Part shown: positions 9,801-56,700 of the stretch, piece by piece
How positions within the stretch are numbered: the first letter of the stretch is position 1
How the letters are laid out: each line of letters begins with the position of its first letter
DNA from: Terebella lapidaria
Taxonomy: Eukaryota; Annelida; Polychaeta; Terebellida; Terebellidae
Direction: 5' to 3'
NCBI GenBank assembly: GCA_949152475.1
Contig: OX424560.1
Coordinates: 16,369,106 to 16,433,105 of the forward strand
Length of the DNA: 64,000 bases
Position numbers and translations under genes: made by a program
Notes under the pieces: generated by a model
What the model saw: only the letters and a program-made list of their open reading frames with translations
The model's database searches: none
Told to the model about the DNA's origin: nothing

Positions 9801-12800
9801 TCCTAAGAGTAGTTTGAAAGGGCTGAACATTGTGCTATTGATGTTAGGTGTAGCTCGCCATGCGGCCATGACTGACGGGAGTAAATCTGGCCAGTTGGTC
9901 TGGTTTTTGTTGGAGAACATTCTCAATGTTTGCGCCAGAGGTGACATCCGACGTTCCACTGTTGCATTTGTTTGTGGATGCCAACTTGTTGTCTTGAATT
10001 TGTGGATTTTGAACAGTTTACAGACTTCTGTGACGTTCTTTGATAAGAAATTGGTCCCTCTATCGCTCAAGATGGAGTACGGCGCTCCCCAGCGGCAAAT
10101 AATGTCTCTGTACAGAATTTTGGCTATTTCCTCGCCTTTTAGCGTTTTGACTGGAAAGGCCTCTGGCCATTTCGAGAATGCATCAACTACTAAAAGAATG
10201 TATTTGTAGCCATTAACTGCAGGGAGTGGTCCAAACAGGTCTATGTGGACTCGCTTGAAGATGCCATCACATGGGAGTGGTTTTAGAGGTGCTTTTCTGT
10301 GACTGTGTTTGTCGTCTTTATTTTGTTGACATTCTTGGCAAGATATGACGTATTGCTTGATATCGTTGTACATTCTGGTCCAGTAATACTTCAGACGTAT
10401 CAGGTGGTACGTGCGGTCGAATCCTTGATGACCTGCAAGAAGTGAATCATGATAACTGAGCATGATTTCATGCTTTAGATTCTGTGGGATGACGAGCTGC
10501 TTCACTATTCTGTTCGCTCGCAGACCTTTGCCACGAGGTGCGTACAGGTGATACAGAAGTTTGTCATCATCGACCACATAGTCTTGACTCTCAGCTATGA
10601 GTTTTCTTGTCTGTGCATCATCAATGTCATCTGGTAGAGTTTGTTTCTCCAAGTAGTTGATGATGGGTGTCAGTGCTGGATCGGCTCTCTGCATGTCAAC
10701 AATGTTGGGGACGTTGGAGTTCATGACTTGGGCCAAATGTTGAGCTGACTTCAGTTGAGTATATCTCATTTCAGCTTCAGTTTTCGACTCGTAGAGTGAG
10801 GGTGTTGGTTGATTTTCTGTTAACGACAGTGTGTTTATCTGCGCTGCTGCAATCCAAGTTGATGGTGCTGAGGTTGGGGCGGAGTATTCACGACGACTTA
10901 GTGCATCAGCGTTCTTGTGGAGTTTACCTTTCTTGTATACTACATTCATTCGATATTGCTGTAGAAACAGGGCCCACCGACTCAGGCGACCATTTGTCAT
11001 CTTGTTGTTCTGGATATATTGTAGCGCTGCATGATCGGTGACTGCTGTGAATGGTCTATCAGTGAGGTAGACGTGATAATGTCTAATACCTTCAATCATG
11101 GCTAGCCCCTCTAGTTCGGTTATACTCCAGCGACGTTCAGCTGGGCGCAGACCTCGTCCTCCATATTCGATCACAACTTCCTGGTTTTTCTCATTGCGCT
11201 GTCCAAGTATGTAGGATATAGCTGTACAGGAAGCGTCTGTGTATAGTATGAACTCTCTGTCGAACCTTGGAAAAGCTAAAATGGGGCTCGACATCAGCTT
11301 TTCCTTCAAGGTGTCAAATGCGTCTTTACAATGTGAGTCCCATACAAATTTGGCATTTTTCTGCAGTAGAGCATTCATTGGGCTACAGATCTTTGCGAAG
11401 TTGGCGATGAATTTCCTATAGTACTGACACAGTCCTAGGAAGCTCCGGGTTGCTGTAGGTGACTCCGGTGTTGGAAAGGTTTGTACTGCTTTCACCTTGT
11501 CAGGGTTGACTTCAACACCATTCTTGGAGAAGATGTGACCAAGAAACTTCACTCTGCTAGCCCCAAAGACACATTTTTGTGGTTTGAGGGTGAGATTGTT
11601 CTCTCTTAATTTGTTGAAGACCGCCTGGAGATGTTGGATGTGGGTCTTCACATCTTTCGAGAATAACAAAATGTCGTCGGCATATGTGAGTGCAAAAATG
11701 TAATTGAAATCACGTAAAATTTGAGACATTACTATGCCAAAACTGGCGGGTGAGTTGGACAAACCATATGGCGTACGCGTGAACTGGAACACGCCATGGT
11801 GTGTGATAAAAGCGGTTTTATGTTTGGTGGCTGGATCCAGTTTTGTTTGAAGAAAGGCTTGAGCCAAGTCCAGTGTTGAAAAGACTGTGGGCTGGCTCTT
11901 ACCTAATGCATCGATCACGTCTTCTTGCCTCGGTAAGGGGAAGTATATAGGCTTCACTAATTTGTTGAGACCTCTGTAGTCGATCACCAAGCGAAAGGAA
12001 CCGTCGGGCTTTTTAACCAGAATTACGGGTGATAACCAGTCGCTGGTACTTCTTTCTATGATGCCACACTTCATATGTTGTTCTACTTGACGCTCAATCT
12101 CTAGTTTCTGTTCAGGTGATGCTCTATAGAACCTGGACTTTACTGGTTTGCTGTCACCTGTGTCAATTTGATGTTCATAGCCTTCATAGCATCCTAGTTC
12201 TTCGAGCTTAGTGGCAAACACTTCCCGGTTTTTCCCAATCAGGTCAAGGATTAGATTTTGATCTTCTCTTGACAGGTCCTCGGAAACTTGTACCTTAAGC
12301 TCTCGAGCGGTTTGAACATGACTTTGTGTCTTCGCAGGTGTCACTGAAAATGCAGTGTTAGTATCAGACACTTTGGTCTGGTTGTTAATATCATCATGCT
12401 TACACATACTATATTCACATAGTCTGTTGAAGTATGTGGCATTGGCTGTACAACTTTGTGGTGGTAAGTATGCATCAGTGTTAACAAGGTTAACCTCTGT
12501 GTTGTTATCACATTGTGATGATTTCAGTGATGGTAGTTCAGGAATGTGTGCCAGTGATGTTTCAACATTGTCAACTGGTTTGTATGTACCTAGTATGGTA
12601 TTCTTTGGCACTATGACATCCGCTGGATATGGGTTCAAGAGCCGATAAGAACATCTGTTATTTTCAGGAGCAACAGCACATTTTGGACCGGCCAGGTTGT
12701 AGCGTTTAGTTAATGAAACTGCGGGCTCGACTAGACCAAATTCACTGGAAATTTGTTTAGTTTTGCCCCTTTTGGCTTGCACTCTGACTGGTAACAAGCA

Positions 12801-15800
12801 TTCACCACACGCTGCAATGGTGACGTCCGAGACTGTTTTGATCAGATATACTCCGTCTTGATTACGAGATGTTCTTAACTCTGTCGAAACCATACCTTCT
12901 TGTAAGATCAATTTCTTAGTACTGAAATCAATCTGGGCCTTCTGCGTATTTAAGAAGTTCTCACCAAGAATTATCTCGGGTGAATGTGACCCTGGGATAA
13001 CCAAGAAATCCTGGAACAAGTGTAAGTTACTGATGGTCAGGGGTATGTTTACCTGTCCTAACACAGTAGTGGTTTTACCACCTACGCCAGTGATGTATTT
13101 GATACTGGATTCATTAAGCTTGTTATGTTTAACTGATTTTGACAGTTTATACACTCTTTCTGACATAACACAAACTGTTGCACCAGTGTCAATTAAGGCT
13201 GAAAAACCTTTACCATTAACTGCTACATTTATATAACTACCTTTAGGTTTTACAAGAATTTCTTGTACACTTACTTCGTTAGTTATTTTATCATCAATAG
13301 AGTTCGGGTTTTTGCTGTCCCCTTGTATCTGTTGCCCGTCTTGCCGTGAGACGAGCGCGAGTTCCTATTCTTGATTGTGGGTCGGAACTCGGCTGAAACA
13401 CATGTTCGCGAAATGGTTGGTCTTTCCGCACTTGTCACATGTTGCGTTGAAAGCCGGACAGGCGCGTCGGGCGTGGCGAGATCCACACCTTCCACAAGGG
13501 TGGTGCTGTCTACGTTGTGAGTGCTCGCCGTCCTGTTTGTTCTGTGCGCGTCGTCCGCGACGGTAGGGATGTTGTCTAGTGTTGGTGGTCTGCTGTTTGG
13601 CGAGGGTTTCCTTGATGGATGCCAATTCTTTCTGCAGTTGTGCCGTGCTCATTTCTTCTGGGTTGGCAGACTTAGCGCAGGCATGGCTGACTGTTGTTGT
13701 TGTCGTCATCTGCATAGCTGTCTCGGCTATTTGAGCAATGCGTTTGACATCGCCTAGGGTCTTGGGCGCTTGCATTAGAACCTGGGCACGTATACTTGCC
13801 CTAAGTCCTTGGATGACGTACTGTAACTGATCTGATGTTTTACCCAAGTCTCTGCATCGTCGTGACACGTCGGTAATGTAGCTATCCACGTCCTCATCTT
13901 CCCTCTGCTTCCTGGAAATCAGCTCTGACAGAGCCGAGATGGTTTGGGCATCTGTCAGTTGATGTTCTCTCAAAAAGGCTGCTTTGAGTGTTGTAAAGTC
14001 GTTTCGGGTGTTTTCGGACAAACTGTCGTACCATAGGCTTGCAGCATCTAAGAGAAAAACTGGGAAGCTTTGTGCTGACTGTTGTGTGTCCCAGCCTTTG
14101 ATATTCGCATATCGTTCATACTTTGTCAACCATATCTCCGGGTTGCCTGACGATTGTCCTTTGTACAGTTCCACACTCTTTTCTAGAGCTGTACAACTCT
14201 GATTCAGGCTACTAACAGTCTTTTGGAGACTCTGTACTAGGTTTACTGCTTGACTATTGTCACTCACTAGGTTTGTTTCTGGCTGGGACTGTGATCTTTC
14301 TCTCCGTGTTCGTGCCGGCATGTTGTTGTTTCTTCAGCTGTCAAACTTTGTTGTTGTGGTGTCTGGCAGTCTGGTGACGTAGGGGCTTCCCTCGCAAAGA
14401 CGGTCGCTGATTGGTTTGCTTCGCGGGCACCTGCTGCTGACGTCACACTTTCAGTGAGGCTGCCTGGGCTGCTGCTGCTAAGCGCGGGCTGGCTGGGCAG
14501 CGGTTGAGCACCGGCTGGCTGGCTGGGATGAATTGAAGATGGTCTTTACGCGGCAATTTCTCGGAGATTATCTCCAGCTTGTTTGATTAGTCCCGGTGTC
14601 GAGGGATTCTCCACCACTGTATCAGAACGTGGGTGTTCTGATATTTGATATTGTAGAATTTTAAATTGGGGTTAATCCAGTTTATTTTATCCAGTTATTA
14701 GTCCGAGAAACATACAAAACGCCGTGTCCAGTTCGTTGTTGTTTTATTGATAGTCCGACTTCGTTATTGATGGTGAAATTATAGTTAATACAGTACAAAT
14801 ATTGAGACACTGATCTTTTGTGTCCAGTCCCGATTGTGCCGCCAGCCGAACTGACGCTACAAAGATTTTTGGCGGCCGTTTCAGAAACAAAGAATTCGTG
14901 TGCCAGCCAATCAGATTATCGCGGGGACCAGTGAGATATGGATCAGCCAATGATCACCTATTGTTTTAAATTCTGGAGTACTGAGTCGAACGCTTACAAC
15001 AAATATGGACATGGAAATAAGTGTTACCATGGAAACATCGGGTGACTGGGGTCTGGCTGGTACTAGATAGTACCAGGCACAGCTCACACACAGAGATTAG
15101 AGTACTAGTAGTGAAATACATGCTATGGGGGGTGAGATACAAGTTGAAAACACTAGTAGATTCAAATATGTTTGTTTGACTGGCCCCGCGATATAAAACA
15201 TTGATGGAATTGTTGTTTGGCACAATATAAAATTAATAAAGTATTTTGTGACTGTTCACACATATAAATAGTGATTAAATAACATTGATAATCAATGTGT
15301 AAGTATTACATAATAAAGATACTAATAATAATTAGTATGTAATTATCATATTACATAATAAAACAGCAATTAAAGTATGCAACTCTGATAATATATTTAC
15401 GATGGATATTCGTCTTGTTTTTTCCAGCCAAATGGACAGACGTACCAGGACAATCACGGGCTAGTAACAATCCGCATGAAGCCCGACTCACAGGGCCGGT
15501 TTGGCTTCAATGTCAAGGTAAAAATATAATCTGAATCATTAGTGTATAAACAGATTCTATTTCATTTCATTCAATGCGATAATAGGTTGATAGCTTCATT
15601 TACGCTGGTGTGATCGAAACTCTATTGATCTGGCTTATAAATTATAAATTTTATGTTTTAAACGAATTGCCACCGACTACTGTTCAATTACATGAAGACA
15701 ATTCCACACGCGCACACTGATAAATTCATTGATAAATTGGCTACAGATTTGCCGAAGACAGAGCAAAATGTTCAGAAATATTGGAATACATCCGCATACA

Positions 15801-35700: not shown

Positions 35701-38700
35701 GCAAAGCAATGACGTACAGTATCTTCATCATAATCTCAATTTTTGCATTAAATTTTTGTTCAAAACAAAACAAGTGATATCTACGTTCACAGAGTACATT
35801 AACGTCGCAAATATGTTGAAGCTCAAGAAAATGTCCAAATTTTACATCCAATACCACTAGCCATGCTCAAAATCCCACCTTTAATACTTAGCCCGGTGCT
35901 ACTTGTACTATTCGTTGACTTTTTCCCAGCAGCCGGTCGGCTCGCAGGTGTGGCTTTAGTCCCAGCAGCTGGCCGAGTGCCGGCAGCTGGCCTAGTTCCA
36001 GCTGCTTGCCTACTTCCAGCTGCAGGCCGGCTCCCAGCTGTAGCGCGAGCCTTCTTTGTGCCCGCTGCAGGTCTCGCAGTCGGGACCTTCGCCTCCCCAT
36101 CCACCAGTGAAGTCTCCTGCACATCTGTACCACCTAAGATCAAGTTGTCCAGGCGTTCCAGGGCAGATGCTGGGCTCGATGCCGAAGGGGCTGGCCCTGC
36201 TGCTCCTGCGGCTGCCGCCGTCGCCTCATTGGTCGGATTCTGGCCACTTGCTGCAGCCGGGGGCGGAGTCGCCCGAGACTTGGCGTGTTTCGGAGGTGGG
36301 AGGGAGGAGGTGGACGTTCTACCCATGGAACTTGTTGAAGTGCGACTGGTGGACCCGGTGGAGGCGCGACTCGACGAAACGTCAGCAACAGTAGTCACTG
36401 GTGGTCTGTGCGAGAGAGTGAGTCAATAAAAGGTATATGTCAAGTGAGATTGTGACATGTAACGATTGCCAAGTTTAATGGAATAACTTAGGAAAGGTCT
36501 ATTAGTTCAATCAGAAACCCATAAGAGAGATCTCTCTTATGGGTTTCTGGTTCAATGAAAGCATGCCAATCACTATATTTGCTATACTATACATTCTTCA
36601 ATTTCTCGGTTCAATTTTTGCGATCAAAAAGAACACATGTGGAACAATAAACGTATGCAATTTGACGTACGTTTCGATGGCATCTGCCGCAGCTTCCCGA
36701 TCTTGCCGCAGCCTCTCTGCTGCTCTATCACGCTCCTTCTTGTCGAAGGTCGGTCTCCGAGAGTAGCGCTGACTTGGCCGGCGCTCAAATCGTACACTCT
36801 TCCGTGCTCGGTTGATGCTCGCCATTTGGAATTCTGTTCGGTTGCTGTACAAGTGGAGTGTCATGAGATAACAAGATATTTTTTGGATGTTACGTTTATG
36901 TTTATGAAAAGAAAGAAACTTTCATAACTTTATGTTGATGTCTTTAAAATGTTGACATTAGAGCTATTTGAAAATCTCACGTATACACATCAAACGTCTT
37001 AGGATCATTTTCATCACACCTGTATCGAAAACGTGAGCCCATTCGGAAGAAGGACTGTCGCCCGGTCGGCTTGTTGTGAGCTGCACGCAGTCGGAAGAAG
37101 GCGTGGTACTCGATGGCACACTTCCACAGGTGCTTGCAAGCCTTCTCGTTTTGTAGACGAAACACAAATATGTGCTCTTGTTCTCGTCCCTTGAGAACAG
37201 AAATATGTTGTCATTAGGCAGTGTCAACTTAGTTTATTGAATCAAATATCAGATAAATATTTAAAAACAAGTTGCAAATTTGTAGTACAGGTATAAGGAC
37301 ATCATTTTATACTACAACTGTATTCTACTGTACTTGAATAAATGCTACTTTCTGTTTGGTCATTTTATGTTTCAGTCCATGAAAATATAATTGGAATATA
37401 TTTGGATTTTAACCACAGAGAAATTTTCTGATGCAACAACAAATTTTGAAATGTAAGTACAGTAATATTTGGAGTATTGTATTCTGCCACTCATTGAGTA
37501 CCAAATCAGACCACAAGGGGGAGCCACTTACTGTTTCATCATCCTCGACAACGACTAGTGTTAATTTCTTTTTCTTGAAGTCCAGCTTGGCGATCTTAGG
37601 CCTACAAACAGAAATCATAATGTAATATTGATATGATGGATTATTCACTCCTTTTGCTTATTGAAGTGGGCATTCATGTCATAATGCATAATTTCCTTCT
37701 CAACTCAGATAGTTTATTGAACAGCTGAACATAACTCATTAGAGAAAGATCACATGTCGAAAATTGAATATTGACATATTGAGAATTTCTATCCCATACA
37801 TATTCAGTAAGGTGTTTACAGTTAATTCGTCTCCATTCACCTACCAGAAAAAGAGACCAATTTTCTGGATTCCTTCAAACACCAAGATTCCCGTGGGTGT
37901 AAGCCCAAGTCTATAGTCCTGGCCATCTTTACCCTGTGGGAAAACGCAAGTAGCAGATTAAAAAATTATCAATAATTATTTTTCATAAATAAACATGGTG
38001 AAAACAAAACTCTATACATTTTTTGGGTTTCTGAGAAAAGTAACTTTATTCTTATACATGTTATAGGCTTGGGGTTTAATTCTTTTTTGAGGTGTATCTG
38101 GGTTATCAATATTCGAGTAATGTTTCTATTTATATATATAAATATATTCTACAATAAAGTAACAATTTTAACTTTAATACCATTAATTTTAATTATATGG
38201 TTAAGTAAATATATCATTTTCAATTGATTATTTGTAAAAACATGGAAACAAAAATATACCATTGTTACAATATTAACCAGTCATATTCAATAATATTACA
38301 TCTCTCTGATCAAATACCACATAAATTGAGGAAATTATTAACATATTGGCTCACCTGAACGATGTGCATGTCCACACCATACATTTCCAGCCACTTGGCT
38401 TTATTCAGGTAATTTGATTCAGCCTGGGCAGGTGTCTGTCCCCTGGCGAAAAATCAATCAGTTAATATCATTGGATAATGACAATATGATGATGAAAGGG
38501 AGTTGAACAGTTAGGGAAATAAATCATTTTTGTTGTAAATGGCCCAGCATTATGACTGCAGGATTGAACTTAATTGGGGAGCGCTTGGCAACAAATCATG
38601 ATGATTTTATCAAGAGAATATCGATATTTGCTTTAAAAAGTGCAGCTAAGCAGATAATTGTTTTTAGTTTAGGACCCAACGGTCAATCGTCTCCTGTTCT

Positions 38701-41700
38701 AACCTAACAATTGTAACCATGGGAATATATTGATTCAGCCCTGGTAACGAGTCATATTCCCTGGTGGTTGACAGGTCAAGATTCCCATTGTACATCAATA
38801 TGTCTCTAGAGGCAACGGAGGCCTGTCATATAACAATCAATAATGATCGAAATGTCCTGGGCTGCGAATTAATTAGTCGGCATGGGTCATATTCTTGTGG
38901 GATAAATAGACTTCTGCCTCCCAACTCTGTCACTGATAAATGTAGTACTCCTTGAATGTTTCCACCTGTTTTGCTTTATTTTAATCATGATAATCATATA
39001 GTTTAGCTACAGAATATTAATTCAACTATGTTTAATGACATCTCGATAAATCTTTACTAGGAGTCATAAATCCACAAAGTATGACAAAAATTTTGGAACA
39101 TCTATATTCAATGGGTCCCACTATATGACAACATATAAGGAAGTTATTCATTTCACGACAATTATACATTCTCACAGATATTGTACATACGTGCAGGTTT
39201 TGAACTGTTCGTAGATGGCGAGTTCCATTTCCTCCGTCTGATTCGGGACGAAGCGGAACTCCGAGATGTACCCAGGGGTGTGGATTTCTTCCTCATAGTC
39301 ACCTAGCTCAGCTGTATGGGGTAGTGATGCAATATATTATTAGGTATTATTTTATACAGTTTTTATAATAATAGGAAGTTTTAACTTGTTTAAAACCAGT
39401 ATTTATTACATACCTACCTCTATAATAAACTCTTTGGGTAATCTTACCTTGGCATTCAAAGAAGAGGAGAGAGAAATGAATGTCACAAGAATTTTCTCAA
39501 AATTCCTGACATCCATCTCGAACTCGAAATTGAAGGAAATTACTCTCACACATCTCAGATTCCCCGCGGTGTAGATGTGACGTCACACCGGTCATATGAT
39601 TGACCTTAACCGCCATTAATTTGCCCACCTGGTTAAGGCAGGGGAGGCGGGAGGGAGAATAATCGTGTTTATTATAGAGGTAGGTATGTAATAAATACTG
39701 GTTTTAAACAAGTTAAAACTTCCTATTTATTGCCATACCACTACCTCTATAATAAACTCTTTGGGTTATATCAGAATAACCAAAGGAGGTGGGTTTAACC
39801 CTCTCCCGGGAATTTCATCACCGATGTGTGAGAGTAGGAAATATCCATTGAAAGTAGTAAATATTGTGTTTTACTTTTAAATTATAATTTTAAGTCGAAA
39901 ATACATATTTACAGGATATTTACAACTATACCATAATACACGCCTGAATTACCTTCAGATGCATGGAGACGAGCAGGGGCTCTGCAGAGGTGACTTTCCT
40001 CTTGCAGAAGAACAAAAATTTCCCTCGCCAAAGAAGAGGAGCAACTCCCCTGGGAGTCGACCTCAGGTGCATCTGTACAGAGGCGTGCTGATCTATTTAC
40101 AGGTATCTACAGCTGGACTACACGCTCCGCCGCCACCAGTCGTCCAAGCTGGAGGCCGGAGTCATCCTCCCAAGCTAACTCCCTGAGATAGAAAGAAGTG
40201 AATGTGTTATGAGATTTCCAGGTACAGGCAGACATGACATTATTCAGAGACACTTTATTTGTAAAGACAAGTGAAGCCGCGAGAGCCCTCACATCATGCG
40301 CTTTGACTCTGAAACCTGTGGATTTTTTCGCCTGTGACTTTTCATAGCAAAATCTAACACACTTCTTGATCCAAGATGAGATCGTAGCAGGACGGATATC
40401 ATTTGGAAAATCCTTAAGATAGGACACGAAAAGCAAACGCTTGCCGAGATGCAGCTCACGCGTACGATTAACGTAGATGCGGAGGGCTCGCACGGGACAA
40501 AGCTTCGCGTCTTCCTCCAGGCCCGGCCCCAGAGAAGGAGTCAGGGCGGGAATGGAAAAGCTCAATAATGGCGTACCTGCTAATTGAGTTTTGGCCAGAA
40601 AGGAGGGAATGACTCCGAGGAGAACCGAGGAGCCATCCGACTTCCACTTAACTTTGGAAAAGGACAGAGCGTGAAGCTCACTCCGTCGCTTCCCGGAAGC
40701 CAGAGCCAAAAGGAAGACCGTCTTAAACGTCAGCAACTTTAGTGAGGCCCGCTCAAGGGGTTCGAACGGATCTTTTCTTAAGACGTTGAGAACAAGCGAT
40801 AGATCCCACTCAGGAACCGGGTTCCTAGCTTTCGGTCTTTCGATCTCGAAACTATTAATCAACGCAGTCAAACCTTGATCATGACCAAAATCGATCCCAA
40901 GTTTGGGTTTTAGAGTCTTCGCGATAGCCGTACGGTAACCCGCGATCGTGGATGGAGCTCGCCCTTCATTGAACTTTTCGAGAAGAAATTCGGAAATTAG
41001 GGGAGCATCGACTCTGAAAGGACTAACCTTCCGGCGACGACACCAAGCACAGAAGGAAGTCCACTTCGATTGGTAGACTGCCAAAGAAGATTTTCGATTT
41101 GATCGGGCGATCCTAGCGGACACCTCCCTTGAAAATCCCTTCTTTCGGAAACATCGCTCGACAATATCCAGGCATGAAGCTTCAGACTTGCGGGAGCCTG
41201 ATGAAACATGCTGGAGCGAGGTTGTTTGAGGAGGTCCCACCGATCCGGAAGCTGACGAGGGAAGTCTACTATCAACTCCAGAAGGTCCGGGAACCACGAC
41301 CTCTGCGGTAGACACGGAGCAATCAGCAGGAGGCGACACTGGTGAGTCCGAAACTTGGCGATCACCTTGTCCAACAACACCGCTGGGGGGTAAGCATACG
41401 CGTACATGCCCTCCCAGGACGTCGACATCGCATCCACTGACATGGCCGTGGGATCGGGAATGGGAGACACAAACGAAGGAAGTTTGTGGTTCCACCGGGT
41501 CGCAAACAAATCGACCATCGGCGTGCCCCATAGGCCGCAGAGAGATTGGAATACCCTGGGGGCAAGACTCCACTCCATGGCCTGGACCTGGCCCCTCCGG
41601 GAGAGGCGGTCCGCCCAAACATTCATATGACCAGGGATATGCCTCGCGAAAAGCGAAATACCCCGGTCGTGACACCAGAGCAGGAGGTCGATAGGGGCCT

Positions 41701-44700
41701 GGCACAGCGACTGGGACTTCGTACCGCCCTGCTTGTTGATGTAAGCGACAACGGTGGAGTTGTCGGTGGCCACCAACACAGCCTGATTGAGGAAATGTGT
41801 TTCCCAATGCCTGAGAGCCAAGAACACAGCCTCCAGTTCCAACAGGTTTATGTGCCATTCCTGCTGAGACGAAGACCAGGTGCCCGAGACCTCGCTGTCG
41901 TCCCAGTGAGCGCCCCAGCCGTCCATACTGGCATCCGTAAATACGTGCCTGGATGGAAGCGGCCGGCGGAATGACGACCCTCGGAGCAGATTGACGGGAT
42001 CCAGCCACCATTGCAGATGGGAAACGACTTCCGGAGAGACCTGCACGAGCTGGGATCTGTCTCCCGTGACCTGGGACCATTGAGAGTGTAGATGCCGCTG
42101 AATAGGCCGCATGTGCAGGCGGCCCAACGGAACTAACTTTTCCGTGGACGCCAGCATCCCGAGAAGGGACTGCCAGCGTCTGGCCGTCTGTGGAATGCGA
42201 CGAAGGAAGCCTTCTGACAGCACGGATAATTTTGACTGACGATCCAGCGTCGGCAACACAGTCTCTGAGGTAGTCTGATAACGATACCCCAAGAAGACGA
42301 AGTCTCGACGCGGTGACAAGTCGGACTTTTTTTGGTTGATTTTGAACCCCATCCGTGAGCATAGATTTACCACAAACTGTGCTTGGACGATCAGCGTTTC
42401 GCGACAATGGTGCCGGATTAGCCAATCGTCGAGATATTGGTGGATAAAAATCCCCCGCTTGTGGGCGAGAATCTGGACTTCCCGAGCCACCATGGTGAAA
42501 ATCCACGGCGCTGTCGATAATCCGAACGGGAGCGCCCGAAACTGCCATACGCGGCCGAGATAGAGAAATCTCAGGTATTTGCGAACTGCAGGTTTCATTG
42601 GAATATGGAAATAGGCATCTTTGAGATCGATCGTTACCACCCACGAATCGCGAGGCATGACTGAACGAACTTGCTCCGGCGTTTCCATGGAAAACGTCGG
42701 CACTATTAAGAACTTGTTCAACGGAGAAAGATCTATCACTGGTCTCCAACCCCCCGACGCTTTGGGAACCACAAACAACACGCTGTAGAACCCGGGAGTG
42801 TCCCCGGGAGCAGGTTCTATCGCTTGTTTCTCGATCATCGCCGTTATCTCCTCGTGGAGAACACGGCGGCGTTCTGGATCGTTTGGAAGAGTGAAACCCC
42901 TTGGGACGGGCGATAACGGTGGCAATTTCTCGAATTTCAGGCCGAATCCTCGACGGAGCGTCGAGACGACCCAGGGGCAAGCCCCGAGCCGCTCCCACTC
43001 TTTCCAAAACAGAATTAAACGAGCTCCTACGGGCTCGTCTGAGGAAGGAATATCGACCGAAACGAGCTGACCATGCAGCTCTTCTCGACACTCGAGCAAA
43101 GGATCCGGCCCGGAATCCGAAGCTATACGTACCCGGTTTCTTTTCCCCTGCGGGCTTGGGAGCCTCTCCGCGTCCTCGGCCTCGGCCACGACCACGGTCT
43201 CCTCGGGTGCTGCCGGCAGAGGCCCCGCGAAAGGGCAACCCTGAGGCCCTGCCTCTCGCTCTACCACGGCCACGAGTCGGCTGTTGCTGAGGCTGAGACT
43301 GCTGAACTGCAGACTGGGGCTTCTTAAAGGCCGAAACCATCTGTTGTGTGAGGCGTTCCAGAGACTTCGACTGGCTCAGGAGGGCATTGGAAGTAGAGGA
43401 CTTCGCGGCCTTCTCGTCGGCCTCCTTCTTCACCTCCCGCAACTCCGCAGAACGGTCAGGGAGTAGAAGTGAAGTAGGGGCTCCGGAAGAGGGGATAACG
43501 GGGTGGAGAACTCTCATGTCTGTCATGAGCTGGTCCGGAACCTCGAACTTGAGGGATGAGAGGAAGGCGTCACGCCGCCACAACTCGGACACCCAGAGTG
43601 AGTGGGAGTCCAGGGCCACCTTGTCACCCACACCTTTGCCAATGGAGGTGACCAATGAAGCGCAGCTCAATAAGGCTTCTGCCAAATCATCCCGGTCGAC
43701 GTCAGGGTTGTCCAGGACCTGGTCACGGCACTGAAGAATGGCCCGTCTCGTAGCCATCGACAGCCAGTCCATGGCCGAATCCGTGGCCAGCCCCACTCGA
43801 AACGTGTGCTGCAGCTCCGCCAAGGCCGCCCATGGGATCTCCACGGCCTTAGGCTCCTTGAAAAAGGCGTAATGGGGGTGATGCCTCCTCAAAGCTGTAG
43901 GCTTGTCGTCCAACTCCGACGACGTATAGTAGTCGTTGACAGACGGGCGAGCAGGATACGCGCCAATCGCCGACTTGTTGGACCTGATGGTCTCGTCCAT
44001 GCGCTCCTGCATGGAGCCGCGAACTCCCTGTGACAGAGGGAACCGTAAGGCGTCCTTCGACGGCCGGGGGTGCTCTATCTCAGAAGAGATCATCGAACGA
44101 GCCACCTTCTTGACTGGGGCCGGAGCATGCTCTTCGGGCCACAAACCCGGGAGGACCCTCTTCACAAAATCCAACTTCTCCCCCCAAGAGAGAGGGTCGT
44201 CGGACTCGGGCTGGTCCGCCTCCTGGTCCGGGTCCGCCTTACGCTTTCGCGGAAGCGTGAGGCCTGACGGGCCAGGTAACGGCTGGTCAGCCGACTGAGA
44301 GACCTGTAGGGAAGGTTCCTCATCTGAAGACGGCTCTTCCCTAAGCAGAGGGGAAGACGGGGGCGGTGGCGGCTGTGGAGGCGTGAACCTCGCCAGAAAC
44401 TGCTGCCACTGGCCTAACATCTCTTCCCGAAAAGACTGAAGCTCGCCCCTAAGGCGCTGCTCTGACGTCGTGGAAGAGCTCCCCTGGACGGCTCCGACGC
44501 ACTGGAAGACCCTTGGTCCGCCAACTGGGCGAAGGACAACATACCCTGGCTAGAGGCGACGAAACCGGAGGGCAGGGCCGTAAGAGGGGAATCGTCCTTG
44601 ATATCCTCGGCGATCTGAAACACACAGGGCGAATCAGAAAAAGGAAACTCTGGAAACCGTGGAGACATGGAAACTCCAGGAACCCATGGGTTTGGACGGC

Positions 44701-47700
44701 TCATGGCCCTTGGCTCCCGGCCCCTACTGGCCACGGCTCCGGTAGCCACGGCCTGGGGTCCAGTAACCGACGGGAAATCGGGTGCCGGCGGCCGTATCAC
44801 TGGCGACACGGGCCCGGACCGAAATCCGCCCTGGCTATGGGGTTGAAACCCAGCTCCGGGGGCAGGTGCCCGACCCGGAGGGGGAAACAACACTCTCTGT
44901 CCAGAGGGATCCCGGGCGCAGGGAACCGTCGTGAGCCCGACGGAACCGGCAGACCCCGAAACCACACTCGGACACTGAAACCCAGGTCGTTCAGCCAGAG
45001 AAGCATGAGAACGAGGGGCCAGTAGAGAGGGAGCCAAAAGTGAGCCACACAAACCCGTAGGTTGTGGGGAAGTTAGGGTGCCGAGAGCCGAACGCGCGGC
45101 TCCCGGGACCCGTACCTGGCTGAAAGAAAATGACAATGATAAATCAAAACTTACAGCACAAACAGCATTGGTTAACTGCAAATCTAAACGCCGCTTGCGT
45201 TCCTCAGACGCCTTGGGACGCGGCCTGGCGCTATCAGAATCTGACGGGGAAGGGGGAGTAGGGCAACCAGCAAACCTGCGGGCCTGAATCTCCCGTAAGC
45301 CTTGAAGACAGAGTTTCCACTCGTCGATGGACCAATCCGCGCATAACTCACAGGTGGCTGAAGGACGGCAATAAACAGTGTCCCTACACTGCCAGCAGGC
45401 GTTATGAGCCTCCCACTTAGGAAGGTAGTGTTTGCAAACGATGCACTTCATATCTGAAACATATCAAACATCGAAGTACAAACGGGCGATAATGGGGGAA
45501 GGAAAGGGGCCTGGGGAGGCTTTACCATTTCCTCCCAAAAAAATCGCAAATCACTAACTCTAAGCTAGTCTAACAACGAAAGAACGATCTACTGAAGAAA
45601 AAGCTGTGCAAAGAACAGCCTAAAGACGATCGTAGACGTGAAGAAATTCGACTTTGAATGCCGAAAGCAAGACTTGCTGCACATCCAACAATGGAGGAGC
45701 AAATTAATGGCGGTTAAGGTCAATCATATGACCGGTGTGACGTCACATCTACACCGCGGGGAATCTGAGATGTGTGAGAGTAATTTCCTTCAATTTCGAG
45801 TTCGAGATGGATGTCAGGAATTTTGAGAAAATTCTTGTGACATTCATTTCTCTCTCCTCTTCTTTGAATGCCAAGGTAAGATTACCCAAAGAGTTTATTA
45901 TAGAGGTAGTGGTATGGCAATAAATATGTCCTTTTTAATATAATTTATTCTAGTAAAAGTTCATTATATATTTGGGCAGTTTATTTATAGTTACTTTTTT
46001 AAACATAATATTTATTGTACTTTGTGATATCTATAGTCAAAATAATATAGTTATTATAATATGTTATCTATATTATATTATATTACGACATTTCAAGTTA
46101 TATTAATCACTCAAACATTTTCAGACTCGGCGTAACGTAGTCTACAAACAGGGAGGTAATGAAAAGTCAAAATTTAAAAGATATATCTTGAATATTATCT
46201 CTTCAAAAAAACATATTTTATAGAGTAACTGATCAGCATTCTAATACTGAAAAGAAAATAGGGGGTCACCATGCTGGTTTCTTCGACATATTCGATCCAA
46301 AATCACCAAAATTTACTAAAATGAATTAATTTATGGTATTTTTACACATTTTTTGCCCATATTCATATCTTGCATCTTGTTTTCCAAGAGAACGGATACG
46401 GTGACCACCTACTTTCTTTTCAGTTTTAGGATGCTGATCACTTACTCTATAAAATATATCATTTTGAAGCTCTAGATTTTGTTAATACAGTCATTCATTT
46501 TGAAAAACTCTTTGACCCCCTTCCGTCACTGTTAGGAGCGGACTACCTCAAAGTAATTCACATGTCTGTACAATAACAAACCATTAATTGTGAACAAAAA
46601 TCAGCTTCAGAAAATGCTACAATCCATAAACTTTGCTATCACCGGCCGGGCATATCAACAAAAACACTTTGCCTGCAATAATTCTTACATTGTAAAGCGT
46701 ACGCCGCTAATTCAATATTCGTCTCGAAGGGGCACTCGAGCTTGCCGCTCAGTATATCTGACTTCAGCTGCAGGAAAAACTGATACCTGCAAAAAGAAAA
46801 AAGAACACATTATAAAGGCAGTGGCGCCAATGTACAAAAACTTTGCTCAGAAAAAAAAAAATTACTTTGTGAGCGTCTTGGGTAGAAGCCAGTGAGGCAT
46901 GTCAAATCCCAATGGAAAAACTTTCCACAAGATATCGGCAGAAACCCATAAGAGATACTGATATCAGTGTAATGCTATTATTTGCCTAATTTAACCATGG
47001 GCAGAAGTTGTGGAAAATAATGAGCTGTCTTGATAATGCCATTCTAGTTTTCATCCACTTGTAAATCCGGAAGTATTTTCACTATTTTTATCATGGTAAA
47101 ATAAGCAATTTTTTTTTTGGCAGAGGATTCAGACAGGAATACTTCTGCTGGTCTTCCATTTGAATAATAGCAGGGCAAGTACTGGATTTTGATTACTTTA
47201 TTGATAAAATTCATTTTATATATTTCCTAGATATTTACGCACAGAAGTACATTGGATATAATGAAGTTATGACGATCACCATGGTAACTTACCGAGTTAA
47301 CTCTTCATGGAGATTGCTGGGTTCCGACGAATAAAATTTCACCTTGAAGCGGAGTGTGTAGGGTGGGCCAACTGGAAATATACCGGTAATCAAATTGCTT
47401 CAATGAAGATCATTATTGTACATACAACCATTACATGCATACAAATCAAATGCAAGTGTAGATCTTCACCCTTGAAAACGCACATTTTGATCACTACACT
47501 TATATTCAGATTTCATAAAGTAACATGTATTTTCATATGATATTGATAATTTTGATAACTATTTTCAGATTATTTTCTCCAAAAATACCATGGTAGTGAG
47601 TTTAATGGAATTTATAATATAGGTACATTATGAGTGTTGATTGCGACTGTTTTTCCCCTTACACAGTACATAGAATACTTTTATAAATGACTCAAACTAT

Positions 47701-50700
47701 GCCAATGTGAAAAGAACATAACAGCATTTCCCAGGCACATATGTGTACAGCAATGTTCTAAGTTACATTTCTTTTGAGGCAGTAATTCATGTAAAAACTT
47801 CATGGTATTTCATACAAAGGAGATATTGTTCCTGTTGCCCCAGTGACTTCCTGTGAATGAAAGCAGTTCACTCACATCAAGTATAAACTTGACAAAACAC
47901 AGGTACAATTTAATATCTACAAGCAGGGAAAAAAAGTCTACGGGTATGAATTTTGTTGTGTGGAGTGCTCGAGTAATTTTATCAAGTGAGGTTCTGAAAA
48001 ACATCTTATAATACGTAGTGTAATGATTTTGCACGAGGAACGTTTCGTTTTCAAGTGTTTTGAGTTGAAAATCTCTTCCCGAAGCCTGGAACACAAAACC
48101 AGTTTCCTGCATAAAAGCGCCATAGTTTTGTTTCATTCACAAATGTCCTGGTTTTACGTTTTTTGCTCAAGTAAAAACTCCCATAACATGCGAGTTTTAG
48201 TAATTAATTCTCGCACAATTGCATAATGCATGCCAGGTACCATGTAATAAATATTAATAAATATGACAGGTCATCCCCAGTTAAACAACCGATTATTCAA
48301 TGTTGATATTCCGCGAGTTTAAATTCAGACAAAATCAATTTACCAATACCATTAATCAAACCCTTGATAAAAATGTCTGCGTTGCTTTCCATCCATCATT
48401 ATTAAATAATTGATAGAGTCGAAGGTGGCTTTTGAAGTGAGCAACTGTTCTCATTGGGATAACTCATGAATATGTCAAGAAAAATTCCATAAACAATTAA
48501 ATGATATACTAGTATACAGACTCAATGATTAGTGGTGAAATATCTCTTCTATAAAGTTGTTTTGTAGATAATTCACAATTTTATCATAAATATAATGTGT
48601 CTATATGTATATGATTGACTGTCATACTTATATGACAATGCAATGCATTGTTCTCTGGAGCACGCCTCAGTGAAAACTTGATCGTAATGTTTTAATTCTG
48701 AGGTTTTAAAAAGACTGTTATGTGCACACTGAACTACACTAACACCTGCAAGGAAATATCTTTTGGCATGTTTAAACAGCTGTCATTTCATACAGTAGAT
48801 CAAAATGTACCATACTTTTTTTTTTCACTTTGCGAAGGCAATTAGAGAAAAAAGATCTGATTTTTGTTTATAAGGTAAGATAGATATTTACATAGTTGCA
48901 TTATATTATCAAAAGCAGTCCATTTTTTTCAAACATATTCATCAGAATTTACAACAGATAATCAGTTATTTTATGAAAAAAAAACACATTATTCAAACAG
49001 TACCACCAAGTTCCCCAATTCAATTAAACTCGTGACTCAAAAATGCTTCTGTTTTGAAAACAAAAGTACTGGGTCATTTGAAAACCCTGCAATACTCTCT
49101 TCACGCATACTGCATGTAAATTTCACAAATACACATTACTCTGCCTTACATGTATATCATGAATATTTTCAACATGCTCAAGGAACTGTTTGACATGTGT
49201 AATCAGATGGTGCCACAACCCCCCTTTCTCCGGTGGGTGGGGGTGGGAGGGGGCCTTCTGACACCAGGGAGCTGGCAAGCATATCCAGATTGATGTGATG
49301 TGTGGTACGACTTGTGAATCTGGATCTTGGGAGCGAAATCAAGGAAATCTGGATGAGATTTATCTTCATGGGGCACGCGTGCACCACATCGCAACAACCG
49401 TCCAATCAAACTTGGCATTTCTAATAATCGTCATGCAGATTTTTCTCTCATTTTTTCAAGATGTCGACTCCCACCCTTCAAAGTATTCCTTTCGTAGGTG
49501 ATATCGGCAAAATGATTATTTCTTGCCAGTAGCTACCACCTTTCGATCTATCATGAAAAATGGTCTTAGTGCCGGCAATTAGCACCAGACGGACAGATGA
49601 TTAGCAAGGGAATGGGCACACCATACGGACTAAGGGGGGGGGGGGGGGGGTCTGAGGAAGAGGATAAAAACACTAGCAAATATCTGCTACCATATCGGCC
49701 ATGCAGAACTGGCCATTCTTTTTATCTGGCGTGTTTATAATGAATTCATCGTAAACAGTTCTGGAAACGTGCTCTGAAATCAAAAATTCTAGTTTGGTTT
49801 GGCCCTTTCTTTTATATATTTTTGAAGGAGTCTGTGGCGAAAAATCTCTCACTCGGTAACAGTCTGTAGATACAAATATCATAACTGGTGTTAGGCACTG
49901 CTTCGTATGATTATTTCATCATCACAGGCATGTATTTTTTCAATTTTTCCCATTACCCCCGGAAGCCTACAAATTGGAAAATCTTGTTTTCGACTGATGG
50001 CTGATCCCTGGATACATCTCAACACGCCTAGCTATAAGACAAACTATATGTTCCTGAAATATCCTCCATTTTCCATCACGATAAAGCTACGTGCCGTGCT
50101 GTAACTGCTTACAGGTGAGGCCGACACACCCAGTAGCTGTGAATCTACCCAATGTCTACATGGAAAATATGTTGTATCTTGTCAGAAAATAGACTTTCAC
50201 AAGTCAGCGATGGTCTTCCCTCAGTCACAAAGCGTAGTTCCCAGAAACTGTTACACCTACTAGTTGTTTTCCCGGCTAACATCCCACACACACATATATA
50301 TTATGCACTGGTATCGTATGGCCTTTGCTCTGCGGTGTGCACCTATGCAGTTGGAAACATTTCACTTGGCAATACGCTAAACTAACCAGAAACCAGTCTG
50401 CGGTTTCCAAAGAAAATCATGAAACCGCTGAGCAAAACCAGTCGCATTGTTAGTTGGAGATGGGGGAAATCTGTTTGGGAACTTAGGAAAACGCCAACAA
50501 GATAAAACATAGAGAAAGCGCTTGGAAGTATTACGGACGCGAAAAGGGGAAGCTCCTGCCCAACTAGAGACAAAAGTCCTTGCACAGTGAAAACACTAGG
50601 CAATTTTGCTCAGAAAAAAACATGTGCGGCAAAATCTAGGCCAGTACTCGGGACATTCGCCTTATGTTTTGGTTTCACAGGCAACAAAAATCTGTCGACT

Positions 50701-53700
50701 GCTTCGTTGTTTGGGAGCTAGTGTACATGTGAACAACGATTTTGATAACCGAAATTTGCATTGCAAAGTATAAAATATCAGAAACACATGCAATATGTTT
50801 TAAAGGTATTCCATCAAATCAGACATCTATATTATAGATCTGCTTGTGCCATGCCTTATGTGAAATGGTGATGCACATGTTTGCCATAGGCATGTGCGAA
50901 AAAAACACAAACAAATATGGCAACTTTGCCAGCCGGCCGGACAAGCCTCTGGCTCGTGTACACGCAGACAGAGATGTGGCTGGCATGCAGTACATTCTCC
51001 GCGGGGCAAGTGACGAGCAAATTTGGCAGTGTTCACATAATTTCCACAAAAATATAACATAAATATCTGGCTTTCTTAATAGATCAGGACAAATTCTGAT
51101 GTCAGATTTCATAGAATTAGTGTTTTACAGAAGGAAGCAAAGAAATTTTGTTATCCACGTAGGATGCTATATTTAACAAGTTATAATTGCTTATTAATTA
51201 TTAAAATTATGAATATGGCATAACTGTGATATGATGCGCCAATAATAAATCACTTGAATTTATGGGAAGTAAGCTTCTTAGCAGGAAAATTTGCTAATTA
51301 TACATTCAGATTCAATGCTAAGGTAGCTCTACATAGGTATGGCGACAAAATTTCAATATCATCATGATCTGTTTCCCACTATGGTTGCAGTTCGATAACT
51401 GACAAAAAGAACATGTAGAAAGCACTCTAAAAATATGTCCAATACATCAGTTGTACTTTATTTACTGCTGTACAGTCCATCATCCGTCGAACATTGTTAT
51501 CATGATTTCAGCAATATATTGACGTTTGATTTTATTGATTAATGTGTTCTTTATTGTCTACAGTGTGTCCAATACTGGTAGGATAGCACATTGTATAGCT
51601 ATATACATATTATGCATTTATATTCTAATTTACAAGCTCTGTATACTTTGATAGCACTTAATATCAAACAAAATATCATGGGGGAACAAAAGCCACTCTT
51701 GAATATGCACGATATAAAATCAATCATCTTTGGACATTGGACAAGTATCAGCTCAAAATTGATACTCACATCGAAACTCACGAAACACTGTAATAAATAC
51801 ATACATGTATGTATGAAGCTTTACATAACATGGGGAAAACCACTGGCAAACACATTTGTATCCTGATAAACTGAGTGATATGATATTACATGTATTCATT
51901 ATTCAAATTTGCACAATACACCGGTATTTCATATATCAGAACTTCAACACATTTACTACCGGCAGAAATACATAACGAGATCTCTCGTTATGTATTTCTG
52001 CTACCGGTAGTACTCAAGTCATAGAAAAAACACAGAAATTCCCCTGAAATCATCACTTCTGACATGTACTTTATTTATATTAACACTTATTTTAACCCTT
52101 TGCACCATAATAATCTACCTATGCTTATAACCTGCCCTTCCCCTTGCCCCTACCCCCAGACACACAGCCCATATAAACATACATTTGGCACACGTCTATA
52201 TACATCTAATACATGCATTTACTACAGTGTTTTCCAAATGCTTGCACCTGGCTGGCCAAACTGGACATCTGGACCCTGCACGGATTGACCCCAGCCAATC
52301 AAAACATGGCAGAACCTCAGGGCAGACCCCGGGTGGATCCAGATCTTATCCAGCAGAACTTTCGACTGATTATTTCCAGGAACTATTGGGGATTGAAAAT
52401 CACCACAGAATTGGGTCGGAAACTTGTTCTCACAAAACTCATACATATTTCTTAAAAGTCTATCACCAGGTAATTGGGTAGTGAGCAACGCCTAAAGATA
52501 TCTGAATTACACGCAACTAGAAAGTGCACTTGTTGTGAATTCAGACACAAAATATTCATAAATCAATTTCTTGGACTGAGTGCTCGTGAACCGAGAAACC
52601 AAACCCTTGACAGTTGCAAACATGGCTAGCCTGCAGTAATCTTTGTTGGTAAATAAACTGTCTGTCTTTGAAAGTGGTTTGGACTTTGGATGGGATGAAA
52701 CTTGTCAGATGCTCAAGATGAATGTAGCTATTCTTCTCAAAACAAAAACTCTCATGAACGATTTCTCAAAGGAGAGCTAGTTTGAACGAGGCATCAGATT
52801 TCTATATTTTTAATCTTGGTGGGTCAATTATGATTGAAAGAGCAACAGAATATGCTTGTATTTATCACAGTCTAGTATCTCAGTAAGTCGTTATTTATTT
52901 AGTATGATTGTATCTGGCTTTGTATCAAGATTTACTCCTAGCAGCAAATAGTTCGCCCAACACTGAACACATCCAATCAAAAAAAGTTGCTGGAATACAT
53001 AACAATGCACAAAAGAACACATTGAGTGCTCAAAACTATCCATTTCTTGACAAGTATACCTGGGTTTCTGCCAAGGGGCTCCCACAAACTGTACAGACAG
53101 AAAGCTTACAACAAAGCAAAGACACAGACGTACGTGTGGACGGTCTTTATACACTCGAGAAAGTACTTCAAAAATACCGACACGCTTACATTGCAGTATA
53201 TTTGTCTTTGCAAACACTGCCTGGAGGGCAGCCTGAAAGGTGTCGCGTGGAATTTATACATATGTAGAGTTTATTTGCTTACACCAATGCTCGGGTCATA
53301 TTCTGACATTTTATCTTTGACAAATATATATTATTTGCAAAGCAGTGTTCATTGTGCAGGTGTGATTGTTAGACAATTTAAATACATGTATAATTTGCAG
53401 TGAATAAATTTGAGCTTAATTAATTAAAAACTTGAGTAATTAACTTGTTATTTGATAACTAGACGCTTCCGGTCGCCTACGACCGCTTGGGTGTATCCCC
53501 CGTAGCACTATCGTTCCTCATGCCCCAAATATATTACTAATAAGTGTGAAAAACTAGAACAAGGGATAGAGAAGATTACCAGAGAAATGTAAAATCTTAA
53601 GCCACAACTGTTTTTTTTTCCCCACCAAAATTGCTAAATTAATCTTTCAAGGTTATTGAAGGGCGAATTCAAGATCACCACTGAAACCACTGCATATGAA

Positions 53701-56700
53701 TGTCCCTTTCGACATGTTCGATAACAAAAACGAAATCACAGCCAGATCATACTTTTCACCTAAATTTATATTTCAACTCAGGATTTTTGACATACTTGGT
53801 TCCAAGTTAAAAAATTAACCAAAACTGCATTTCAAGATCACGAAATTGGAGCCAGATCGAACTTTTCACCATAAGTTATATATCAACTCATAATATGTGA
53901 CAAACTTGTTCCCAAGTTGAAATTCAAAGTAAAAGTTGATCAAAACTGCATTTCAAGATGACAAAATTGGAGACAGATCGAACGTTTCGCCATAAGTTAT
54001 ATTTTAACTCATAATATGTGCCAAACTTGGTTTCAAGCTGAAATTCAAAGTAAAAGCTTTTTACTATAAGTTATATTTTGACTCATAATATGTATCAAAC
54101 TTGGTTTCAAGTTGAAATTCAGAGTAAAAGTTGACCAAAACTGCATTTCAAGATGATGAAATTCGAGCGAGATCAATGTTTTAGTAAAAATAATGTTAAC
54201 TTATCCAGTTACACCCAGATATCTCTACTGGACAAAACCTTTACCTTGTTGAGCTCAATAATAAATGTTTCTCGTCTTAACTGTTATTATTGAGGTCAAT
54301 GATAGATTTAACTAGCAAAAATAATGTTAATTTATTTGGTTACAGCCATAAAATCTCTACTGGACAGAACCTTTACCTTGTTGAGCCCAATAATAAATAT
54401 TTCTTGTCTTAACTGTTTTTATTGTGGTCAATAATAGACTTAACTAGTAATAATAAGGTTAACTTATTCGGTTACACTCATGAAATCTGTACTGGACAAA
54501 ACCTTCACCTTGTTGAGCTTAATAATAAATGTTTCTCATCTTAACTATTTTAATTGTGATCAATAATAGACTTAACTAGTAAAATTAAGGTTAACTTATT
54601 CGATAATATCGATCTGTTTTCATTAAAAACAGCAGTCCTCCATTCTGAACAAGAATCCAGTGCTATTTGTTTTCATAGTACAGGGTATGGATAGATCACA
54701 GATGTTCAAGTCGGTATTTTAACGGTCGTAATAAGTTAGCCCGTTAACTAATTAATATTTATTCGATCATTCTGAAAAACGATAGGTTCCGTGTGAGGGT
54801 CTTTTTCTCCGAGACTGTGCGATTTCATCATCATTCATTGAAAACTCCCACTCGTAGAGCGTTCACAAGCCATGTGTGGTAAACAGGCTAATTTGAGCAC
54901 AAAATGTGTCGCCAATCGGCCAATTTGGTTGCTATGGCAACCAAAATCGATTGGTGTCGGGATCTTACCATAAGATGTGTCTGTATAAAAAATTATTAGA
55001 ATCGGTTAAGATTTGCAACCAGTAGCGCGTTCACAAGAAAGTGTCTGCGGACGCGGACGCGGGCGCGGACGCGGCGCGACGATGACAAATCCATAGTATC
55101 CGCCGAACTTCGTTCGGGGGATACAAATATATATAGAGTACCTTTATTCGCTGTTGCGAAAGCTGTCTATATTACCAGTGTGTCTGTATTTCTCCACTGG
55201 TATTTTTTCCAAATATATATATATTAGTATTATGTGTCTAGAATCTACATGTTTTCAGTTTGATCAACCTGTTTTCAAACAGAAACTGTCCTAATTTTTG
55301 TGCCTCACTCACCAGAACAATTGTATGTGTCCATAATTTGAACAGAATGTTATCAACTGTGCATCAGTCAGACATGCGATATTAACTATGTAAGTCAAAA
55401 CCTTTCATGTTGTAGCAGATATTTACTTATTCAACCAATGACATATACATGTATTATGTATGAATTCAAGTCCTGGCACACTTTTGTACAGTATTGAGAG
55501 GATTGAGACATCAGAGCTCATTTCTCATAGAGTCTATAATATAATGTTTCGAAACTACAACAGAGTGATGGATTAAACTTGGTAAATTTGTACAGTTTTT
55601 TTTTTTTTGTATGTGCTTTGAAAATTAATGTTCATGTGAATCAATGGAGAACAATACTTACTCAAAACTTGTTTTCGAACTTTCTTAGTTGGGTCGAGCC
55701 AGTGCTGAAATCAGAAGTCAGGATATTTTTATCTTATCAACACTTTGATTATAGCTTCTAATCACAGTAATTATGAAGACATCTAGATGTCTTTCTATTT
55801 AAAGTTCATACATGTTGTTAGTCACAGAACACTCTACAGAGGTTTAATATCACATGCAATTTTCCAATGAATATTTGGCACAATATGCATTTTAAAGTAC
55901 CAGTCTCTCTTGGGCATTTTATGCAAAATTACAATATTCACAATTTACACAATCATAATACTTCAGAAGCAACTTACATTTACATTTGCCGAGTCTGTAA
56001 ATTGTAGTCCAAAGTAGTCAGTTTCTATCAAGTCCAGATGGTAGAAGATTTTGTCATATAACGTGGATCCATAGGCCTTTTTCTGGAATAGAAAACAACA
56101 TGATTATTTTTAAAACAAACTAATGAACAATGTATCACTAATTTATTTGCATTTTAACACCACAATGAAAAACATAAGATCATGTTCAGATTCTTCCAAA
56201 ACTTCAATTCTTCAAAAATCAAAAATCGAAAAAATCATAAAATCAAAAATGATAAATTAGATTCTTTCCAGTTTCATACATGACCCACGTAAAAAATCAA
56301 TACAGCAAATTTGACAATATTGACAATTTTTTCTTATCCTCGCTGAACTTAGACGGAGCACTTCAATTTTTCAAATCAGCCTAGTTAAGAAGTACGTTGA
56401 GATATGAGCCTATGACTAATGACTCTGGCGAAATACCCCATCTGTTACTGTTTGGTTTACAAGTATGGACCGAGTAGTCTGCCCCTTGAACACTGGTCCC
56501 TTCAATAATATTGCAATATTGTGGTTCATCCATTTTTTTTGCTACTGTACAATTTGAATACATGTAGCATGTTTTTGTCTGGTGAAATGGACTGTCTTTG
56601 TGATGTAACAAGTATTGAAATGGTTGTAACGTGTTACTAACTATGCTTGTCTGCGCCACACAAAGAACGCAAAAAGCTTTGATCTTTGTTCTCAAAGATG

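Follow-up and report, generated by a model that had tools for sequence, protein, structure and literature searches.

Short palindromes in the annelid Terebella lapidaria as probable excision footprints of P-superfamily-like transposons

The P element of Drosophila is cut by its transposase 17 nucleotides (nt) inside each end, which leaves 3' extensions of 17 nt (PMC7776569), and when such breaks are repaired, the product has the 8-bp target duplication on each side and, between its two copies, no more than 17 nt from either end of the element, connected by microhomology or filler (PMC2895639). I describe here sequences of similar form in the annelid Terebella lapidaria (assembly GCA_949152475.1): short palindromes, CAGAAA...TTTCTG, each flanked by its own 7-bp direct repeat. 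Two of them and the one-armed remnant of a third lie in a stretch of 64,000 nt from contig OX424560.1 (G000:C6:16369106-16433105), called the window below, and their relatives were sought in the 761.6-Mb genome (438 contigs). It is highly probable (about 0.91) that the palindromes were left behind by the excision of P-superfamily-like cut-and-paste transposons, and are not 38-bp mobile elements.

Like the P products of Drosophila melanogaster, the sequences considered here combine a duplication, terminal bases up to a fixed limit, a join through microhomology or filler, and CA..TG ends, and P-transposase domains are found in a second group of elements in this genome, those with CAAAGAG ends. 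The Drosophila tails are 17 nt long and the duplications 8 bp, whereas the limit here is 19 or 20 nt and the duplications are 7 bp; moreover, the Drosophila products were obtained experimentally at a marked element, whereas those here are spread over many natural sites. Galileo, a member of the P superfamily in Drosophila, makes 7-bp duplications with the consensus GTAGTAC (PMC2775673), which is near the target preference seen here (T at position 2, A at position 6). Its terminal repeats are long and internally repetitive, unlike the 22 and 38 nt of the two long elements described below (L056 and L055, respectively), and the main text of that paper never uses the word "footprint". The duplications of zebrafish Pdre2 are 8 bp (PMC10983969). 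In D. mojavensis, a 27-bp sequence made of 12 bp from one end of BuT5 and 15 bp from the other was likened to a transposon footprint (PMC3355041), but the case is single and is bounded by 9-bp sequences read as exchanged target duplications. The literature covered by the search yielded no paper that describes natural P-type footprints across a whole genome or palindromes of this kind.

Palindromes in the window and in the genome

The two palindromes were found as a preliminary description had given them, 38 bp long and each with its own exact 7-bp repeat. Positions 36505-36556 read GTTCAAT + CAGAAACCCATAAGAGAGATCTCTCTTATGGGTTTCTG + GTTCAAT, the two copies of the duplication occupying 36505..36511 and 36550..36556, and the footprint between them (36512..36549) fits, by arm length, 19 nt plus 19 nt of CAGAAACCC ends with no filler. 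Positions 51956-52007 read CTACCGG + CAGAAATACATAACGAGATCTCTCGTTATGTATTTCTG + CTACCGG, with the duplications at 51956..51962 and 52001..52007 and a footprint (51963..52000) that fits 18 nt plus 20 nt of CAGAAATACATAACGAG ends. These two pairs of repeats rest on reading of the sequence and on the scoring of flanks. The third copy, reported earlier as one-armed with a duplication matching at six of seven positions, was confirmed by re-reading 46932-46967 as ATATCGG + CAGAAACCCATAAGAGATACTG + ATATCAG. It is best described as a trimmed footprint on the plus strand (46939..46960) in which 17 nt from one end are followed by TA and then by CTG from the other, with analogues among the one-armed loci L099, L107 and L112; its duplications, read at 46932..46938 and 46961..46967, differ by one mismatch. 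No strand is assigned to the duplications or to the two full palindromes.

The arrangement is not expected by chance. The pattern CAGAAA-N20..40-TTTCTG has two matches in the window, a number attained in none of 100 shuffles. A scan of the window for stretches of 16-51 bp with CA..TG inverted-repeat ends and exact 7-bp flanking repeats also gave two, and none in each of five shuffles; the same scan gave none with repeats of 6, 8 or 9 bp and two with repeats of 5 bp. These controls, together with the flanking repeats found across the genome, bear out the earlier claim that the palindromes mark real insertions.

The genome contains many copies, as had been predicted. Counted on the forward strand, with the reversed pattern as control, CAGAAA-N26-TTTCTG has 292 matches as against 40, and the pattern that runs from arm to arm with a free centre, CAGAAAYMCATAA-N0..30-TTATGKRTTTCTG, has 691 as against 0. 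Flanks were sampled at 57 loci (L001-L017 and L057-L096) and in the window. Of the copies there, 55, including two in the window, conformed to a strict arm pattern; L002 (a chance match), L004, L095, L096 and a second, degenerate palindrome in L012 did not, and were not scored. A 7-bp repeat flanks 32 of the 55 exactly and 45 with at most one mismatch, where shuffled partners gave means of 0.7 and 2.0, and at no other length between 4 and 11 bp was an exact repeat found at more than one of the 55. One amplified repeat holds L005, L006, L062, L069 and L113 (the last from the hand-chosen set considered below), and the flanks of L007 match those of L065, as those of L084 match those of L085. With L006, L062, L069, L065 and L085 removed, 50 sites remain, at which the 7-bp repeat is exact in 31 and within one mismatch in 42. 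Among the 31, T stands at position 2 in 29 and A at position 6 in 27. The junction at 36512..36549 recurs identically at four of the 50 sites, each with a 7-bp repeat of its own. The fixed length of 38 bp given in the preliminary description was not upheld, since the footprints at these sites range from 27 to 49 bp.

The amplified repeat just mentioned belongs to an abundant family, in which L005, L006, L062, L069 and L113 each carry a P-type footprint frozen in place, so that scars can evidently hitch-hike on other repeats. The footprint is 35 bp long and lies between 7-bp repeats (the best 40 of 1656 candidates were scored), which in the copies read are mostly CTATAAG and altered in some. 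A diverged paralogue in the window, at 54853-55090, lacks the insert and has in its place a single CCATAAG (54968..54974, plus strand), which shows that the 7-bp repeats arose through insertion. This unoccupied site does not by itself distinguish a scar from a tiny element.

Arm limits, variable centres and long elements

The length of an arm was taken as its longest exact match to an element end, for the 100 arms of the 50 sites, the sampling pattern having permitted longer arms than were found. Within the CCC subfamily, 16 of 44 arms are exactly 19 nt and none is longer. The ACG subfamily has 5 of 18 arms at 20 nt and none beyond; the AAG subfamily has 5 of 16 at 20 nt and one at 22; and none of the other 22 arms, most of which belong to the GACC subfamily, is longer than 19 nt. 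There is thus an upper limit of 19 or 20 nt, with few exceptions, on the terminal bases that are kept. In the 20-nt subfamilies the additional base falls outside a GAGAGAG block, and the limit precedes the same GAA in three subfamilies, so the cut may be positioned by this inner block and not by distance from the tip.

The limit bears on the possibility that long elements simply lost their interiors, by aborted gap repair or some other deletion, without excision. Such a process would equally keep the duplications and give the left-to-right joins described below, and a 475-bp pair of ends on contig C9, a shortened element, shows that shortening does occur. Deletion should, however, scatter the breakpoints, whereas the arms heap at 19 or 20 nt and then stop, with only three CCC matches of 21 nt in the genome. 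Because so sharp an edge is not expected in the absence of a cut site, I regard this explanation as extremely unlikely.

The centres vary. There are 42 distinct sequences at the 50 sites, and 13 at the 20 sites of the CCC subfamily, although later point changes account for some of these. The long centres at L060 and L066 hold, as judged by eye, copies of arm sequence, and they resemble the templated insertions reported for polymerase theta repair at P-element breaks (PMC2895639).

Loss of one arm, which had been suspected from the third copy in the window, was borne out in a further set of 20 loci, picked by hand among arms that lack an intact second arm, with the repeats judged by eye. Seven are flanked by an exact 7-bp repeat (L098, L099, L102, L103, L105, L107, L112), four by a repeat with one mismatch (L100, L101, L111, L116) and one by a repeat with two (L106). 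No clear 7-bp repeat was seen at five of the 20 (L097, L104, L108, L110, L114), L109 and L115 turned out to be intact ends of long elements, and L113 is a copy of the amplified repeat. L107 and L112 keep 19 nt from one end and just TTCTG from the other, and the second end of L099 is reduced to CTG, as in the window.

Miniature inverted-repeat transposable elements (MITEs) are short and mobile, have inverted-repeat ends and target duplications, and each of their families has one defined sequence. The preliminary description took the palindrome as the inserted unit. This would in effect be an ultra-short MITE, dependent on a transposase that acts in trans and makes 7-bp duplications, and the exact duplications, the unoccupied paralogous site and the occurrence of certain identical sequences at separate sites all suit that idea. 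What was found is not one defined sequence multiplied: with 42 sequences spread over 50 sites, none of them present at more than four, and 13 at 20 CCC sites, many separately born units would be needed. End pieces were trimmed unequally and joined with variable centres under a ceiling set by a cut site, features that differ from those of MITEs, and the one-armed copies with exact repeats lack most of one terminus. The arms end at 19 or 20 nt where the long elements run on, and a 38-mer offers no room for the internal transposase-binding sites that Drosophila P also uses (PMC7776569). A tiny mobile unit is therefore very unlikely, and the footprint reading is preferred.

The larger elements with the same ends that the preliminary description proposed to look for do exist. 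L055 is 1735 bp long with ATACAGT on either side, and L056 is 2455 bp with ATGATAT on either side. Their terminal inverted repeats, not counting flanking bases, measure 38 nt (97%) and 22 nt (100%), respectively, and extend beyond nt 19-20, where the palindromes turn round. Intact exact ends as far as GAGAGAGAA number 98 in the genome, the GACC subfamily falling outside this count, and many form convergent pairs, at spacings of about 0.5, 1.7-2.7, 3.2, 5 and 7.5-7.7 kb. Four pairs, known as paired ends, have nearly equal spacings of 7615-7657 bp (C1:41855103-41862759, C9:9124497-9132111, C14:17657458-17665113, C17:13294925-13302581) and are likely to be long CAGAAA elements. A candidate autonomous partner at C5:19519746 was dropped, as the L056-like end near it seems to be part of a shorter copy. 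L056 itself contains a nested footprint of another CAGAAA subfamily (L056:1323-1364, ATGTGAA on both sides), apparently common to its relatives.

A prediction from CAAAGAG elements, and the probable origin of the scars

If excision of the P type makes palindromes, then elements with different ends should yield scars of their own. The P-transposase domain PF21787 has at least 150 matches in the genome (the best 150 of 496 candidates were scored). Seven of these loci were read at 8 kb, and two proved to be complete elements with CAAAGAG ends and 7-bp duplications, L048 (GTGTTAG) and L053 (GTTCAAC); no convincing pair of ends was found at the other five. The open reading frames of L048 and L053 (730 and 751 amino acids) match PF21787, PF21788, PF21789 and PF12017, that is, the elements carry P-transposase RNase H and GTP-binding domains, which places them in the P superfamily.

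The scar pattern predicted for CAAAGAG ends occurs at 11 places, as against none for the control, and among the seven whose flanks were read, the 7-bp repeat is exact in six and has one mismatch in the other. The target sites of the CAAAGAG group, those of L048 and L053 included, share both the length of the duplication and the target preference of the CAGAAA footprints (T at position 2 in all nine, A at position 6 in seven of the nine, counted by eye). The two ends of L053 diverge past nt 13, and eight of the 11 scars are of its type, the other three being of the L048 type. Six of the eight unite a left-specific with a right-specific arm, two are unclear, and in no case are two left or two right ends joined; no left arm is longer than 19 nt.

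These joins tell against a further suggestion of the preliminary description, that a self-priming hairpin strand was inserted. A perfect palindrome is indeed among the two commonest sequences (at 4 of 50 sites), as a hairpin would give. A single folded strand cannot produce scars that carry the two different ends of one element, as in six of the six informative cases. The unequal trimming of arms and the existence of long elements with the same ends also speak against the idea, which I consider scarcely credible.

Excision footprints would arise as follows. The starting point would be a long element whose ends have the form CAGAAA[C/T][C/A]CATAA..GAGAGAGAA; the two that were read measure 1.7 and 2.5 kb, and pairs of ends suggest lengths of up to 7.66 kb. 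Insertion of such an element would duplicate 7 bp. When the element left, its transposase would nick one strand at the tip and the other about 19-20 nt inside, so that each chromosome end, by analogy with Drosophila P, might retain a 3' tail of 19-20 nt of transposon sequence. The cell would then trim, anneal or fill the tails and join them, so that the two copies of the duplication enclose two end pieces of at most 19-20 nt each, one inverted relative to the other. The scar would be a nearly perfect palindrome because both tails have the same sequence, inverted. The duplications, the matching long elements, the 19/20-nt ceiling, the variety of junctions, the left-to-right joins and the scars of transposase-bearing P elements were all observed; the repair pathway and the membership of the CAGAAA transposase in the P superfamily I infer.

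Several observations weigh against this account. No locus was caught as both full element and footprint, and the nested palindrome in L056, tried as a comparison of empty with occupied site, was uninformative because the relatives of L056 seem to share it. No open reading frame of transposase length was found in L055 or L056, nor did any listed match to PF21787, PF21788 or PF05485 fall inside the paired-end CAGAAA elements, the 7.65-kb ones included (comparison by eye, the best 150 of 378-624 candidates scored per domain). The window has no match to L048, L053, L055 or L056, or to relatives of the transposases encoded by the first two. At eight of the 50 sites, no 7-bp repeat with at most one mismatch is present. 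The ceiling is broken by the single AAG arm of 22 nt and by the three CCC-subfamily matches, from a direct search of the genome, with arms of at least 21 nt, whose extra bases could reflect slippage in the AG repeat; for the GACC subfamily, the ceiling is putative. Four of the 11 CAAAGAG scars reach 20 nt (one right-end junction at three places and one scar of the L048 type), the last base of the match being attributable to either side. Finally, the commonest sequences recur at separate sites, a 38-mer and one 36-mer at 4 of 50 each, which fits preferred repair products and would fit a small mobile unit as well.

Neighbouring elements and significance

Two retroelements also lie in the window. 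The one at 39414-45935 has identical inverted repeats of 211 nt (39414-39624 and 45699-45909), complementary copies of 55-61 nt, large open reading frames on the minus strand (40107-44420 and 44414-45451), a weak match to Phage_integrase (E 0.13), and a 4-kb block at 55% GC, as against 34-44% elsewhere; I take it to be a DIRS-like tyrosine-recombinase retroelement. The other, at 9042-14321 on the minus strand, is of the long-terminal-repeat type, with a gag-like open reading frame and one of 1374 amino acids that has reverse transcriptase, RNase H, H2C2 and integrase domains.

The arm-to-arm scars number 691 and the exact intact ends 98, two counts made with patterns of unequal strictness. The odds are about even that the genome preserves the outcome of several hundred germline break repairs, each an independent event at a nearly identical break, that excision without restoration of the element far outnumbers the elements that survive, and that the cut is P-like at 19/20 nt inside the ends and not at 17. 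The scars of PMC2895639 come from one engineered site, whereas those here lie by the hundreds at natural sites, where the position of the cut, the trimming of ends, the use of microhomology and the filler of germline end joining could be read in a species without genetics. Repeat annotation calls for some caution, in that a short palindrome, even one whose target duplications are clean, can be a scar and not a miniature element. The scars also document the earlier activity of transposons since gone.

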